Below, piece after piece: positions 42,813 to 53,234 of a stretch of DNA of 64,000 bases; position 1 is the stretch's first letter; each line of letters starts with the position of its first letter. The stretch is from assembly GCF_016901575.1 (NCBI RefSeq), contig NZ_JACJKQ010000001.1, forward strand, positions 310,001 to 374,000. The letters are read 5' to 3'. The notes under the pieces were generated by a model. It had not been told where the DNA came from and did not search any database. It worked only from the letters and a program-made list of their open reading frames with translations. Made by a program: the position numbers and the translations under genes. The DNA is from Enorma phocaeensis (GTDB taxonomy: Bacteria; Actinomycetota; Coriobacteriia; Coriobacteriales; Coriobacteriaceae).

Positions 42813-43244
42813 CTATTGGATGTGCGTGCGGCAGTACGGGCACACCTTCCAGTGCGCGTCGAGCGGTCGCTTGCAGGAGGGGCAGACGTTGCGCACCTGC
42901 GTATTGCATACGGGGCACACGACGAAGTCCTTCTCGATCGGCGTCCCGCAGTTGGGGCAGGTGCCGTACTGGGCGAGCTGGCGCTCGCGCAGCGCCATGT
43001 CGAGCTCCTGCTCCTCGCGGTCTGCCAGGTAGGAATGCGGACGAAGTGCCATGTAGGCGATCAAGCCGGCAAACGGCACAAGCGAGAGCAGGCCCCATGC
43101 CCAGAAGAATTTGCTGCCTCGACGGTTGGCATCGACGAACACATAGATCACCGAGAGCGCGTAGAGCACCACGACAAACCCGATGAAGGCGTAGATGACA
43201 GCCATCACCTGTGGCGTCATGATCTCTTGGAGAATGGAAGACAT
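42813..43244 (-). CDS. Two-helix membrane protein with double zinc ribbon
   Basis: This 143-residue protein has two membrane segments (VIYAFIGFVVVLYALSVIYV and FFWAWGLLSLVPFAGLIAYM), an arrangement like phospholipase-D-nuclease N-terminal/cardiolipin-synthase anchor proteins. The C-terminal half has four CPxC knuckles (CPNC, CPVC, CPSC, CPYC), enough for two zinc ribbons. Function is unknown; such proteins may be anchors or sensors. The ATG at 43244 has AAAGGTG about ten bases upstream. Confidence 0.8.
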   Translation of the reverse strand: MSSILQEIMTPQVMAVIYAFIGFVVVLYALSVIYVFVDANRRGSKFFWAWGLLSLVPFAGLIAYMALRPHSYLADREEQELDMALRERQLAQYGTCPNCGTPIEKDFVVCPVCNTQVRNVCPSCKRPLDAHWKVCPYCRTHIQ

Positions 43245-43298
43245 AACTTGCAGCACCTTTCAATCCATCGCGGGCGCATAGGAACTATGAACGCTCGT

Positions 43299-45372: not shown

Positions 45373-46767
45373 CTAGGGGCGAAGGATGCCCGCGACCTCG
45401 CCAGCGAGGGTGATCGTGCCCGCCGCGACGAGCGGAAGGCCGAGTCCGCCCAACGCCTCGAGCGCATCGGCGACGGCGGGATAGGCCGCCACGAGGTCCG
45501 AGCCCGGACGCCCCGCCCGATCGAGCGCCGCAGCCACCTGTCGAGCAAGCTCATGCGCCGGCACGGCGCGATCCGAGGAGGTCTGGGTCACCGCGACGCG
45601 CGGAAACGCCGGGAGGAGCACGTCGAGGATGCCGGCGACGTCTTTATCCGCAAGGGCGGCGACGAGCAAGGTCGGGCGGTCCTCGATGTGCGGGGCGAGC
45701 TCATCGAGGGCGGAGACGAAGACCTCGCAGGACTGTGGATTGTGGCAGGCGTCCACCAGCGCGAACGGATCGGTGCGCACCACATCGAAGCGGCCCGGCG
45801 TCGGACACGAGAGCAGGCTGCGGGCAAGGCGGTCGGCGTCGAGGGGGCGCTCCAGATACGCCTCGGACAAACAGATGGCGCACGCGGCGTTTTGCGCCTG
45901 ATAGACCGGCTTCAGCAGACGCGCCTCGTAGGTCGCCCGCGGCGTGGAGCAGCGAAATACCGTTTCGTCCCCCAGCGACGCCGGCTCGTGGAGCAGCTCG
46001 TGCGACGAGACGACGGGCGTCACCGAACAGGCGTCGCACCGGTCCTCCATGACCTGTTGGACGCTCGGCTCATGCGTTCCCTCGCCCAGCACCACCGCGC
46101 GCCCCGGCTTGATGACCGCGGCCTTCTCGGCCGCGATCTGAGCGAGCGTGTCTCCCAGGATGCGCATGTGGTCAAGTCCGATTCCCGTGACGGCGACCGC
46201 CACCGGGTCCGTTGCGCTCGTGGCGTCCCAACGGCCGCCAAGGCCCACCTCGAGCACGGCGACGTCAATCGCACGCTCCGCAAAGATCACCAAGGCGGCA
46301 ACCGTCAGCAAGTCGAAGGGGGTTATGGTATAGGACATCTCCCCTGCCTCCGCCCGGCGCGCGTTGACGCGGCGGCCCGCCTCAAGCGCAGCCGACACGC
46401 CGTGGGCAAACTCCGCGTCTGAGACGACCCGCCCGTCAACCTCCATGCGCTCGGGATAGCGCACGAGCTGCGGCGAGGTATAGAGCGCCGCATGCAGGCC
46501 CTCTCCGGCAAGGATCGCTGCGCAGAAGCGCGCCGTGGAGGTCTTGCCGTTTGTACCCGCGACCTGGATGCAGTCGAAATGCTCGTCGGGACGCTCGAGC
46601 TCGTCGAGCATGTCGACGACGGTCTCCAGAAGCGGGCCGGCGTCGCCCGAGATGACACCGGTGTCCGCGGCAAGTGAGACCGCCTCGTCAAAGGCGAGCT
46701 CGGCAATATCAAACGGCACCTGATAGGCAGCGCCGCGATGCGGGCGCTGCGACGGAGTTGTAAGCAT
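45373..46767 (-). CDS. folC: Folylpolyglutamate / dihydrofolate synthase
   Basis: This 464-residue Mur-ligase-like enzyme adds glutamate to folates and, in many bacteria, to dihydropteroate. The P-loop IQVAGTNGKTSTARF is near residue 65, with LEVGLGGRWDATS and CHNPQSCEVFV following. It lies at the downstream end of the fhs-fchA-folD-folE-folC run, with a 130-bp gap after folE. Confidence 0.95.
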   Translation of the reverse strand: MLTTPSQRPHRGAAYQVPFDIAELAFDEAVSLAADTGVISGDAGPLLETVVDMLDELERPDEHFDCIQVAGTNGKTSTARFCAAILAGEGLHAALYTSPQLVRYPERMEVDGRVVSDAEFAHGVSAALEAGRRVNARRAEAGEMSYTITPFDLLTVAALVIFAERAIDVAVLEVGLGGRWDATSATDPVAVAVTGIGLDHMRILGDTLAQIAAEKAAVIKPGRAVVLGEGTHEPSVQQVMEDRCDACSVTPVVSSHELLHEPASLGDETVFRCSTPRATYEARLLKPVYQAQNAACAICLSEAYLERPLDADRLARSLLSCPTPGRFDVVRTDPFALVDACHNPQSCEVFVSALDELAPHIEDRPTLLVAALADKDVAGILDVLLPAFPRVAVTQTSSDRAVPAHELARQVAAALDRAGRPGSDLVAAYPAVADALEALGGLGLPLVAAGTITLAGEVAGILRP

Positions 46768-46897: not shown

Positions 46898-47470
46898 CTA
46901 GCTCTTCAGACCCAGCAGACGCAGGGCCTCCTCACGCGTCTTGATGTCGGAGCGGAACGCGCCGCGCACCGCGGAGGACACCGTAAGCGCGCCGGCGCTC
47001 TTGATGCCGCGCATGGTCATGCAGGTATGCTCGGCCTCGAGCACCACGAGCGCCCCGAGCGGCTCGAGCTCGTCCATCATGGCGTCGGCGATCTGTGCCG
47101 TAAGGCGCTCCTGCAGCTGCATGCGTCGCGCATACCCGTTCACCATGCGGGCAATCTTCGAGAGGCCCGTGATCCGACCGGCACGCGGGATATACGCCAC
47201 GTGGGCGCGGCCGGTAAAGGGCAGGATGTGATGCTCGCACATCGAGGAGAAGGGGATGTCTCGAACGACGACCATCTCTTCGTTGTCGGACTCATGGAAC
47301 TGCTTGCGCAGGTGTGCGGCAGGATCCTCGTCATAGCCACCAAAGAGCTCGGCCGCCGCCCGAGCCACCCGGTCGGGGGTTTCCAGCAGCCCGGGTCGAT
47401 CGGGGTCTTCGCCCACCGCAAGCAGGAACTCCCTGATTGCCGCTTCGGCACGCGGTTTATCTACAGCCAT
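46898..47470 (-). CDS. folE: GTP cyclohydrolase I
   Basis: This 190-residue enzyme makes dihydroneopterin triphosphate, the first step of folate synthesis. The zinc/GTP site has [34 protein letters not shown] and [11 protein letters not shown]. The ATG at 47470 has GGAGAC upstream; an in-frame ATG eight codons higher is possible. It follows folD after a 162-bp gap containing a 7-bp hairpin (47499-47505 with 47524-47530). Confidence 0.96.
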
Positions 47471-47632
47471 GGTGTCTCCTATACTCCTCTTCATAGACGC
47501 CTCGCCATCAACGCTCTTTCAGAGCGAGGCGACCGATGTTCACCTCGACGATCGGGGCGGTGCCTGCGCGACGCTCGCGGACAGGCCGCACGGCGCGCCG
47601 CCCAAGACATGTCCCATCAAAAACCCGTCGCA

Positions 47633-48502
47633 TCAACCTGCCGCATGGTGCCCCGCAGCCCGTTCGGCCGCCTCGACGACATGGCTCATGAGGACCGCCG
47701 TGGTCACCGCCCCCACGCCGCCCGGAACCGGCGTGATGCGCGCCACCCGGTCCACGACCGCATCGAAGTCGACATCGCCTACGAGCTTGCCAGCCTCATC
47801 GTCCCAGTTGATGCCCACGTCAACGACCGTCTGCCTGCCGGACACGGCATCGGCGCCCACGGTGGCGGCATGGCCGGCCGCGACGACGAGCACATCGGCA
47901 CGGCGGCATTCCGCGGCTAGGTCGCGCGTACGGGTATGGCACATGGTCACGGTGGCATCGTGCGCCTGGAGCATCATCGCGACCGGACGGCCGATTACCA
48001 GCGACCGGCCGACGACGGTGACGCGCGCCCCCGCAAGCTCGACGCCCGACCGCACGAGAAGCTCGACCACACCTTGAGCGGTACATGGCGGGAAACCGAC
48101 CGGCTGCCCGGCAAAGACGCCGTAGAGCGACCCCGGCGTTATGCCGTCGACATCCTTCGCCGGGTCGAGCGCGGCGCAGGCCGCCGTCTCGTCGAGGGCC
48201 GCAGGCAACGGGCGAAACAGCAGGCATCCATGCAAAGACGAGTCGTCGTTCACCTCTTGGATGACGGAGCGCAGATCGTCTTGAGAGCACGAATCGGGCA
48301 GGACGAAGCGGCGGACCTCCACGCCAACCTTTTCCGCCCGCTTCATGGCGGCGCGCTCATAGGAGAGGTCGTCCGGCCTCTCCCCCACCCGCACCATGGC
48401 AAGCCCGGGCGCCACGCCGTCGAGCGCAAGGCGGGCGACGCGAGCCTGCAGCTCCTCGGTAATCTCGGTCGCGACGGGACCTCCGCGCAACAGCTCGGCC
48501 AT
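47633..48502 (-). CDS. folD: FolD: methylene-THF dehydrogenase with altered cyclohydrolase site
   Basis: This 289-residue protein has the FolD fold: VVGRSLVIGRPVAMML (dinucleotide-binding), DPAKDVDGI (Asp 119) and ITPVPGGVG. In E. coli FolD the active-site pair for cyclohydrolysis is Lys54 (in YVASK) and Gln98 (in VQLPLP). Here the equivalent run is YERAA (Ala52) and LFRPLP (Phe96), so both residues are gone, while the Tyr and Asp remain. A separate cyclohydrolase gene, fchA, ends 2 bp upstream. I choose ATG 48502 with AAAGGGGG above; GTG 48508 is also open. Confidence 0.93.
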   Translation of the reverse strand: MAELLRGGPVATEITEELQARVARLALDGVAPGLAMVRVGERPDDLSYERAAMKRAEKVGVEVRRFVLPDSCSQDDLRSVIQEVNDDSSLHGCLLFRPLPAALDETAACAALDPAKDVDGITPGSLYGVFAGQPVGFPPCTAQGVVELLVRSGVELAGARVTVVGRSLVIGRPVAMMLQAHDATVTMCHTRTRDLAAECRRADVLVVAAGHAATVGADAVSGRQTVVDVGINWDDEAGKLVGDVDFDAVVDRVARITPVPGGVGAVTTAVLMSHVVEAAERAAGHHAAG

Positions 48503-48504
48503 GG

Positions 48505-49137
48505 TCACGCCCCCTTTCGAATCGCCGTCGCCATGGCGCAGACCAAGGCGTCGGCTCGCGGGGCAAGGGTCACGAGATACCTGTCTGCCTCGGCTTCGAG
48601 CGAGCGGGCGACAGGGTCGTCGGGGAGCCCCGACGTGTTGACGAGCACCGTCACGTGCGCGGCACGCAGCGCCCCGGCGGCGAGCGCCGCCCCACAGCCG
48701 ACGTCGGAGCGCATGAGGGTGCTCGCCATGCCGCCCATGCGCTCAAGCAGCTCGATGGCATGCGCACATGAACGCATGATGCGAATAGGGACGTCGCAGG
48801 CGCCGCGCATGGCCTCTTCGATGCGCTCGGTGCGGGCGGGATCCTCGCGCGGAATCCTATAAGCCGCGGCGAGCGGCTCAAATGCCAGGGCGTCGGCCTC
48901 CACAAGACCAAGCAGCTCAACACGCACGCCCTCCGCCTCGGAGAGCACGTCGCGCAGCTGGTCCTCCACATCTGCGTAGCGAGGTTTGCCAACGGTGAAG
49001 TTGCCCGCCATGGAGCAGAGGGCAACGGCGAGGGCGCCCGCCATCGCGGCGGCACCGCCTCCACCCGGAGCCGGCACCTTGGCCGCCAGCTCGCGAGCAA
49101 ACTCATCACAGCTGAGCGATGTCAGCCCATCTACCAT
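48505..49137 (-). CDS. fchA: Methenyl-THF cyclohydrolase FchA (cyclodeaminase/cyclohydrolase family)
   Basis: This 210-residue mainly helical protein has the family N-terminus SCDEFARELAAKVPAPGGGG followed by AAAMAGALAVALCSMAGNFT. FchA interconverts methenyl-THF and 10-formyl-THF. It sits between fhs and folD, which make the substrate and product, so cyclohydrolase is favoured over formimino-THF cyclodeaminase. No histidine-degradation gene is near. Confidence 0.9.
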   Translation of the reverse strand: MVDGLTSLSCDEFARELAAKVPAPGGGGAAAMAGALAVALCSMAGNFTVGKPRYADVEDQLRDVLSEAEGVRVELLGLVEADALAFEPLAAAYRIPREDPARTERIEEAMRGACDVPIRIMRSCAHAIELLERMGGMASTLMRSDVGCGAALAAGALRAAHVTVLVNTSGLPDDPVARSLEAEADRYLVTLAPRADALVCAMATAIRKGA

Positions 49138-49296: not shown

Positions 49297-50970
49297 TTAG
49301 AAGAGGCCCACGATGGTGCCGTCTTCGAGCACGTCGATCTTCTCGGCCGCAGGCACCTTGGGCAGGCCGGGCATGGTCATGATGTCGCCGGTGAGCGCCA
49401 CCACGAAGCCCGCGCCGGCAGAGACCTTCAGGTTGCGGACCGTGATGCGGAAGTTCTCCGGTGCGCCCAGCCTATGCTGGTCGTCGGTGAAGGAGTACTG
49501 GGTCTTCGCGACGCAGACGGGCATGTTGCCAAAACCGTTCTCACGCAGCTGGCGCAGCTGCTTCTTCGCGCCAGGCGTGTAGTCGACGCCGTCTGCGTGA
49601 TAGATCTTGGTCGCGATGGCATCGAGCGCGTCCTCGATGTCGGCGCCGGACTCATAGGAGAAGTGGAACTCGTGCGGCTCCTCGCACAGGCGCATGACCT
49701 CCTGAGCAAGGGCCTCGCCGCCGACGCCGCCCTTGGCCCAGACCTCGGACAGGGCAACGTTGACGCCCAGCTCGCGGCATTTGTCCTCAACGAGCTTGAG
49801 CTCTGCGGCGGTATCCGTGGGGAACGCATTGATGGCGACCACCACGGGCAGGCCGTAGACGTCGCGGATGTTCGACACGTGACGCAGCAGGTTGGGGATG
49901 CCGGCCTCGAGCGCCTCGAGGTTCTCGGTCGTGAGCTCGGCCTTGGGGACGCCGCCGTTGTACTTGAGGGCGCGCACCGTGGCGACCACCACGACGGCAT
50001 CGGGGTCGAGGTTTGCCATACGGCACTTGATGTCGAGAAACTTCTCGGCTCCCAGGTCTGCACCGAAGCCGGCCTCGGTGACCACGTACTCGCCGAGCTT
50101 GAGAGCCGTCTCGGTAGCCTGTACGGAGTTGCAGCCATGGGCGATGTTGGCGAAGGGGCCGCCGTGGACGAAGGCGGGCGTGTGCTCGAGCGTCTGCACG
50201 AGGTTGGGCTTGATGGCATCCTTCAGCAACGCCGCCATGGCGCCCTCGGCCTTGAGGTCGGAGGCGGTGACGGGCTTGCCGTCATAGGTATAGGCGACGA
50301 CCATGCGCCCGAGGCGCGCCTTGAGGTCCATGAGGTCAGACGCCAGGCAGAACGCCGCCATGACCTCGGAGGCCACAGTGATGTCGAAGCCGTCTTCACG
50401 CGGGACGCCCTGCATGCGACCGCCGAGGCCGTCGACGATGTGGCGAAGCTGGCGATCGTTCATATCGACGGCGCGCTTCCATACGATCTGCTTGGGATCG
50501 ATGCCGAGGGCGTTGCCCTGCTGGATGTGATTGTCGAGCATGGCCGCGAGCAGGTTGTTGGCGGCGCCGATCGCATGGAAGTCGCCCGTAAAGTGCAGGT
50601 TGATGTCCTCCATAGGAACCACCTGGGCATAGCCGCCGCCTGCGGCGCCGCCCTTGATGCCGAAGACGGGGCCGAGCGAGGGCTCGCGAAGCGCGAGCAC
50701 CGCCTTTTTGCCCAAGCGCGAAAGGGCGTCGGCAAGGCCCACCGAAGTCGTGGTCTTGCCCTCGCCGGCAGGAGTGGGGTTGATCGCGGTGACCAACACG
50801 AGCTTCGCCTTGCGCGGGGCATCCTTCAAGGCATGGATATCGACCTTAGCCTTGTACTTTCCGTAGTGGTCCAGCTGATCCTCGGTAAGGCCCACCTTCG
50901 CGGCCACCTCGGAGATGGGCAGCATCTCCGCTTCCTGTGCGATCTCGATATCCGTCTTGTAGTCTGCCAT
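49297..50970 (-). CDS. fhs: Formate-tetrahydrofolate ligase
   Basis: This 557-residue ATP-dependent enzyme makes 10-formyl-THF from formate; the reaction is reversible and can yield ATP. The P-loop is [20 protein letters not shown] near residue 60, with the family blocks [20 protein letters not shown] and [14 protein letters not shown]. The ATG at 50970 has AAAGGGG upstream. A promoter (51031-51059) and a palindrome (51067-51080) precede it, so it opens the C1 run fhs-fchA-folD-folE-folC. Confidence 0.97.
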
Positions 50971-51030
50971 GCGCGAACCCCTTTCGATCGCCGTGTCCGG
51001 ACGCGCCATGCCAGATAGCGCGGTCATTCC

Positions 51031-51059
51031 AGTATGGCCTTCTCGGCCACATCCGTCGA
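51031..51059 (-). promoter_or_regulatory. Promoter of fhs
   Basis: On the minus strand TCGACG (51059-51054) and CATACT (51036-51031) are separated by exactly 17 bp, 61 bp before fhs. Confidence 0.55.
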
Positions 51060-51066
51060 GGGTGGC

Positions 51067-51080
51067 AGGTAAAATTACCT
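51067..51080. promoter_or_regulatory. Short palindrome above the fhs promoter
   Basis: AGGTAA-AA-TTACCT lies 7 bp upstream of the -35 box, centred near -50, a place typical of activator sites. No cognate regulator is known here. Confidence 0.35.
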
Positions 51081-51111
51081 CACTTCGCAACGGTCCTCGT
51101 CGAAGGGGCGT

Positions 51112-52637: not shown

Positions 52638-53234
52638 TCAACTGCCCACGCGCACAAGACCTATTTCCGAGACGACTTGATTAACGGGAACGTCATAGGG
52701 ACCGACCGCGCCTTCGTCAGCAAGGCTCGCGAGGAGCTGGGCTCGCCGACAAAGACCTATGGAGGAGCCCGGAAACTCGGCAAGAAACCTGTCGTAGTAG
52801 CCACCGCCATAGCCGAGCCGATACCCAGTCTCATCGAACGCGAGTCCGGGTACGAGCGCGACCGGATGGACGTAATCCGAGGGGGCTGCAAGCGTCGAAG
52901 GGTCCGCAGGGGGCTCGTCGATTCCAAAGGAGTTTCGAACGAGCCCATCGAGCCCACGAACCCCATGCCAGGCGAGCTCCCGCAAGCCCGGGACGCAGCG
53001 CGGCAAGGCGACGGCGACGCCTTCAGAAAGGAGCGCTCGAACCAGCGAGCGCGTATCGACCTCAGAACCAAACGAGAGGTACGTAAACACGGCGTCTACA
53101 TCACGCGCGCGCAACAACCCCATGACACGCATCCGGATGGTCTCATCCGCCTGCAAACGCTCGGAAGCGGGAATCGCGTCACGGACGGTCTTCATGCGGG
53201 CCCTCAGCCGAGTTTTGCCGCTATGAAGTTCCAC
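52638..53234 (-). CDS. 5-formyltetrahydrofolate cyclo-ligase
   Basis: This 198-residue enzyme converts 5-formyl-THF to 5,10-methenyl-THF with ATP. The basic N-terminus and the C-terminal motif YRLGYGGGYYDRFLAEF are characteristic. The start is GTG at 53234 with GAGGGGG upstream; an ATG 13 codons later would cut the N-terminal helix. It feeds the pool handled by FchA, FolD and Fhs encoded nearby. Confidence 0.93.
   Translation of the reverse strand: MELHSGKTRLRARMKTVRDAIPASERLQADETIRMRVMGLLRARDVDAVFTYLSFGSEVDTRSLVRALLSEGVAVALPRCVPGLRELAWHGVRGLDGLVRNSFGIDEPPADPSTLAAPSDYVHPVALVPGLAFDETGYRLGYGGGYYDRFLAEFPGSSIGLCRRAQLLASLADEGAVGPYDVPVNQVVSEIGLVRVGS

Follow-up and report, generated by a model that had tools for sequence, protein, structure and literature searches.

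FolD of Enorma phocaeensis, encoded beside FchA in the 64,000-nucleotide stretch of contig NZ_JACJKQ010000001.1 analyzed here (positions 310,001 to 374,000, hereafter the window), is very probably a methylenetetrahydrofolate dehydrogenase only, with the cyclohydrolase activity supplied by FchA. This reading, made in an original prediction from the DNA letters, is supported, as a predicted function, by the residue changes in FolD, by the presence of both genes in single copy in a 99.76% complete genome, by the overlap of the two genes, and by the co-occurrence of FolD type and fchA across genomes.

The cyclohydrolase step has been described as employing a Lys as general acid/base, which is positioned by a Gln, with an Asp positioning the pterin (PMC3338484). 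In Escherichia coli FolD, K54N retains about 19% of the dehydrogenase activity with undetectable cyclohydrolase, and Q98H retains about 1% of the cyclohydrolase and 8% of the dehydrogenase activity (PMC5688156); contrary to this E. coli result, near-normal cyclohydrolase activity is reported for Bombyx MTHFD K53A (PMC6443876). Position 47 here is equivalent to human Ser49, which PMC6443876 adds to the residues of the proposed site. In a phmmer search against solved structures, the whole of the window FolD can be aligned to human MTHFD1 and to bifunctional FolDs; both this search and MAFFT alignments put Ala in place of Lys54 and Phe in place of Gln98, just as predicted. Tyr50, Asp121, and the motifs for NAD(P) and folate (GRSxxxGRP and PVPGGVG) are intact, which upholds the claim that they are kept. 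Ser47 is replaced by Asp, and Glu51 and Arg99 are gained. The original prediction had the sites right but numbered them 48, 52, 96, and 119 by starting at an ATG two codons after the GTG; counting from the GTG itself yields Y50, A54, F98, and D121, identical to the E. coli numbers. No other Lys occupies the catalytic position, the check on which that prediction depended, K56 (Y+6) being the counterpart of E. coli K56. An error of alignment register was rejected, there being no gap in the stretch from Tyr to position 54 and agreement among three alignments, as was a sequencing error or chance, since 104 of 104 FolDs from fchA-carrying Coriobacteriales lack both residues and all keep the Tyr and the Asp.

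Scores above the cut-offs of PF00763 and PF02882, together with Tyr50, Asp121, and PVPGGVG, place the protein in the FolD/MTHFD family. It departs from bifunctional FolDs at both diagnostic positions (Ala54 instead of Lys and Phe98 instead of Gln), and the absence of Lys54 with retention of the dehydrogenase residues places it among monofunctional FolDs. None of the 25 NCBIfam bifunctional FolD models listed for it reaches its cut-off (best 255 bits versus 421). The AF2 model (pLDDT 96.6) superimposes on FolD/MTHFD structures with Z of about 40.

The genes are transcribed from the minus strand in the order fhs, fchA, folD, folE, and folC, with the 5-formyltetrahydrofolate cyclo-ligase gene farther upstream than fhs (Table 1). 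FolD comprises 291 residues from its GTG start and FchA 210 residues; as read from the sequence, the folD GTG lies in a GTGA shared with the fchA stop, and this 4-base overlap suggests translational coupling of the pair. The fhs open frame begins at TTG, and its family match spans residues 44 to 597.

Table 1. Features of the folD-fchA locus in the window, and FolD-FchA fusions found in other genomes (fusion coordinates refer to their own loci).
Feature	Coordinates	Strand	Description	Family evidence
folD	47633..48508	-	methylenetetrahydrofolate dehydrogenase without cyclohydrolase residues (predicted)	PF00763 105 bits, PF02882 180 bits, above cut-off
fchA	48505..49137	-	methenyltetrahydrofolate cyclohydrolase (predicted), FTCD_C family	PF04961 182 bits
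fhs	49297..51090	-	formate--tetrahydrofolate ligase	NF010030 938 bits (cut-off 652), PF01268 903 bits
folE	46898..47494	-	GTP cyclohydrolase I, downstream of folD, context only	TIGR00063 and PF01227, above cut-off
folC	45373..46767	-	folylpolyglutamate/dihydrofolate synthase, context only	TIGR01499 262 bits, above cut-off
5-formyltetrahydrofolate cyclo-ligase	52638..53234	-	context only	TIGR02727 135 bits (cut-off 84.9), PF01812
open frame, 416 aa	51138-52388	-	between fhs and the cyclo-ligase gene	no Pfam match at E 0.1
147-aa protein	42813-43256	-	C-terminal double zinc ribbon	weak PLDc_N membrane domain match
Fusion L047	1066-2751		Coriobacteriales; genome also with a separate folD and fchA pair	
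Fusion L208	888-2465		Candidatus Merdinaster equi	
Fusion L227	4453-5979		uncultured rumen Eubacterium	

FchA scores above the PF04961 cut-off, and its closest solved relative is 7vg4, a methenyltetrahydrofolate cyclohydrolase; every position that is invariant across 26 FchAs is retained. The FchA equivalog NF045657, the sole NCBIfam model that it matches, falls short of its cut-off (149 versus 275 bits), so the name FchA rests on genomic context and on this nearest solved relative. Searches of the whole genome with PF00763 and PF04961 return one gene each, hence no second FolD or second cyclohydrolase of these families, and a search for the formiminotransferase domain FTCD_N (PF07837) finds no match. 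FchA is thus the only visible source of cyclohydrolase. The original prediction further held that a bifunctional enzyme had been split into two; this is not so, as FchA is no fragment of FolD but belongs to the unrelated FTCD_C family, which has taken over the cyclohydrolase function.

That prediction also asked whether loss of the Lys and Gln tracks fchA across genomes; the correspondence is without exception in our Coriobacteriales and Clostridia samples. We searched 119 Coriobacteriales genomes from 57 genera for both families and read all 120 FolDs. All 16 genomes without PF04961 carry FolDs with both residues (K/Q), and all 103 with PF04961 carry FolDs without either (K/Q-less), with A, I, L, or V at position 54 and F, L, or M at position 98. 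One genus is mixed (11 K/Q genomes and 16 without K/Q), as are three families, and in each of these the K/Q-type genomes lack fchA every time. FolD was found in 94 of 98 Clostridia genomes, 59 with K and Q, all without PF04961, and 35 without the Lys, all with PF04961. Three of these 35 (L296, L300, and L302) have Gln at position 54 and keep Gln98, a milder form of the loss. The Lys54-keeping genomes of both groups are uniformly devoid of an FTCD_C gene (75/75). Among 47 Spirochaetia genomes, 38 have only a K/Q FolD and no PF04961, and one has a K/Q-less FolD with fchA adjoining. Seven further K/Q genomes of this class carry PF04961, mostly of a histidine-degradation or fused type: two of these genes adjoin an imidazolonepropionase-like gene and three lie in open frames of 557 to 614 codons. 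One Spirochaetia locus (L378:690-2190) keeps the FolD Lys, has Glu at position 98, and shows an FTCD_C gene overlapping downstream; here the two genes have been paired independently. Over the three classes, a missing Lys54 is accompanied by an FTCD_C gene in 139 of 139 genomes, 3 of which were preselected by a DNA motif of the K/Q-less FolD type; the converse, in which a kept Lys54 goes with a missing FTCD_C gene, breaks only in Spirochaetia. These counts are by genome rather than by independent events on a species tree, and the co-occurrence is owed in part to fchA and folD moving together.

A nucleotide pattern representing the K/Q-less motif recovered at least 117 loci; among the matches listed, most are from Clostridia, in which the type is common in Lachnospiraceae, with others from Erysipelotrichia, Coriobacteriia, Spirochaetia, Desulfovibrionia, Synergistia, and further classes. 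For 100 of the 117 motif-selected FolDs listed, drawn from several phyla, fchA lies in the same locus. Whole-genome searches of 30 motif-selected genomes, including 15 of the 17 without a nearby fchA, found PF04961 in 29. The remaining one, a Synergistaceae metagenome-assembled genome (L166), yields no PF04961 match despite its K/Q-less FolD, and its assembly may be incomplete. Of 216 loci that hold both genes, 210 have fchA upstream of folD in the same orientation, at a median gap of 14 bases.

A tree built with the trait columns masked and with five outside references places the K/Q-less FolDs, the window FolD among them, in one clade (support 100/100). Changes at neighboring positions are particular to this type, with co-varying S47>D, V51>E, and L99>R; position 47 is Ser in 76 of 76 K/Q FolDs, whereas 241 of 253 K/Q-less ones have Asp there. 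A single fully supported clade with such class-specific changes indicates that the loss is old, not local: judged by these sequences, it is an ancient feature common to one large FolD clade found in several phyla, and fchA and folD have probably spread together. In a quick tree, the K/Q FolDs of Coriobacteriales group with those of Clostridia with moderate support, which suggests replacement by transfer. Whether the K54>Q FolDs are sister to the K/Q-less clade or represent a separate loss is not distinguished by an AU test (p 0.31).

Three other explanations of these data deserve consideration. One is that the loss and fchA reflect shared descent only, with the fchA-folD cassette inherited or transferred as a block and no functional dependence between its members. 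The single clade speaks for this, and an independent-pairs test on the FolD gene tree offers one contrasting pair only and thus has no power. We nonetheless consider it very unlikely, because FchA stays in the genome even when it is not beside folD (in motif-selected genomes, and in G013, G055, G087, and G114 of the Coriobacteriales sample), because K/Q-type genomes in the mixed genera and families always lack fchA, because three FolD-FchA fusions exist, and because the three K54>Q FolDs, of uncertain place in the tree, also occur with PF04961. There is likewise little chance that FolD retains a useful cyclohydrolase activity by way of other residues (e.g., K56, R57, E51, or R99), with FchA as an accessory that speeds a slow step. 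Such a bifunctional FolD predicts an occasional loss of fchA, against the 139 of 139 sampled genomes that lack Lys54 and keep PF04961, and the E. coli K54N protein argues the same way; the Bombyx K53A report speaks for it, and the joint change of near-site residues in K/Q-less FolDs makes a rebuilt site conceivable.

The neighbor of FolD might instead be a formimino-tetrahydrofolate cyclodeaminase of histidine degradation that sits beside folD by chance, given that PF04961 covers cyclodeaminases as well and that the two Spirochaetia genes adjoining an imidazolonepropionase-like gene occur with FolDs that keep K and Q. We regard this as extremely improbable for the window. The lack of FTCD_N in its genome makes a histidine-degradation role of FchA unlikely and sets the protein apart from FTCD, the closest solved relative is a cyclohydrolase, and fchA overlaps folD and follows fhs in an order that recurs across phyla.

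For the preferred reading, a dehydrogenase-only FolD complemented by FchA, our inference as to enzyme activities, reaction directions, and cofactor is as follows. FolD would interconvert methylene- and methenyl-tetrahydrofolate (THF) with NAD(P) by means of Tyr50, Asp121, and an intact nucleotide domain, and its cyclohydrolase step would be inefficient owing to loss of the acid/base Lys54, the positioning Gln98, and the nearby Ser47. FchA, encoded just upstream with an overlap, would interconvert methenyl-THF and 10-formyl-THF, and Fhs would connect 10-formyl-THF with formate, such that Fhs, FchA, and FolD together would form a branch from formate to methylene-THF.

The fusions (Table 1) give strong support to a functional link between the two proteins. 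In each, a K/Q-less FolD domain is followed by a C-terminal FTCD_C domain in one frame, and Pfam confirms three domains per protein. A more speculative possibility, which we put forward tentatively and think rather less probable than not, is that the K/Q loss belongs to a wider remodeling of the active site (S47>D, V51>E, L99>R, and L40>R, with further changes at positions 267-270 and at 276) by which the dehydrogenase is adapted to FchA, possibly in a channeling complex; the two would then have been rejoined at least three times as fusions, amounting to a second, independently built bifunctional enzyme. A literature search, with subscription papers mostly outside its reach, returned no account of a cross-genome residue rule or of FolD-FchA fusions, and no Coriobacter papers on this FolD/FchA point.

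In these samples, the presence or absence of Lys54 serves as a one-residue rule that separates bifunctional from dehydrogenase-only FolDs. Such a rule would mend an annotation default, in that the NCBIfam FolD models listed for the window protein are all named bifunctional. Lys54 mediates the binding of carolacton to E. coli FolD, and the dehydrogenase activity that remains in K54N is insensitive to the compound (PMC5688156); on this basis, a carolacton-insensitive enzyme is predicted for the many anaerobes with a K/Q-less FolD.

Comparison with known systems places the window pair in a familiar setting. The fold, Tyr50, Asp121, and the nucleotide-binding domain are shared with bifunctional E. 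coli FolD (Z 37.7), from which the window protein differs in the replacement of Lys54 and Gln98 and in the presence of a separate FchA. Yeast Mtd1 (1edz), an NAD-dependent monofunctional dehydrogenase, resembles it in fold (Z 30) and in having one activity only, as predicted for the window protein; at 19% identity over 271 residues, versus 32-42% for bacterial and human FolD/MTHFD proteins, Mtd1 may represent a separate lineage. Peptostreptococcus productus has, as cited in PMC6443876, a monofunctional methylene-THF dehydrogenase that is NADP-dependent, a further enzyme described as lacking cyclohydrolase. The acetogen operon fhs-fchA-folD (e.g., in Clostridium autoethanogenum), used in PMC9618320, encodes the same trio of enzymes with an identical order of genes. 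Unlike acetogens, the window's genome contains no CdhC/AcsB-family gene and is not an acetogen by that test; an acetogenic role was rejected on this ground, MTHFR is present, and the role of the operon is presumably in formate and one-carbon supply. A parallel in kind is Clostridium perfringens, for which Aluri et al. in 2016 reportedly described a monofunctional FolD with cyclohydrolase supplied by FchA. As in the window, a FolD-family dehydrogenase, a separate FchA, and Fhs occur in that genome; some Clostridia FolDs have Gln54 and Gln98, milder than the Ala/Phe/Arg of the window, in an alignment that does not include the C. perfringens protein. That some microorganisms possess a separate FchA is also stated in PMC7219735, which cites the C. 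perfringens work. The arrangement of FolD with FchA is therefore known in principle from Clostridium, the window pair adds one more case, and the published work on E. coli FolD mutants and on C. perfringens FolD plus FchA fits the dehydrogenase-only reading.
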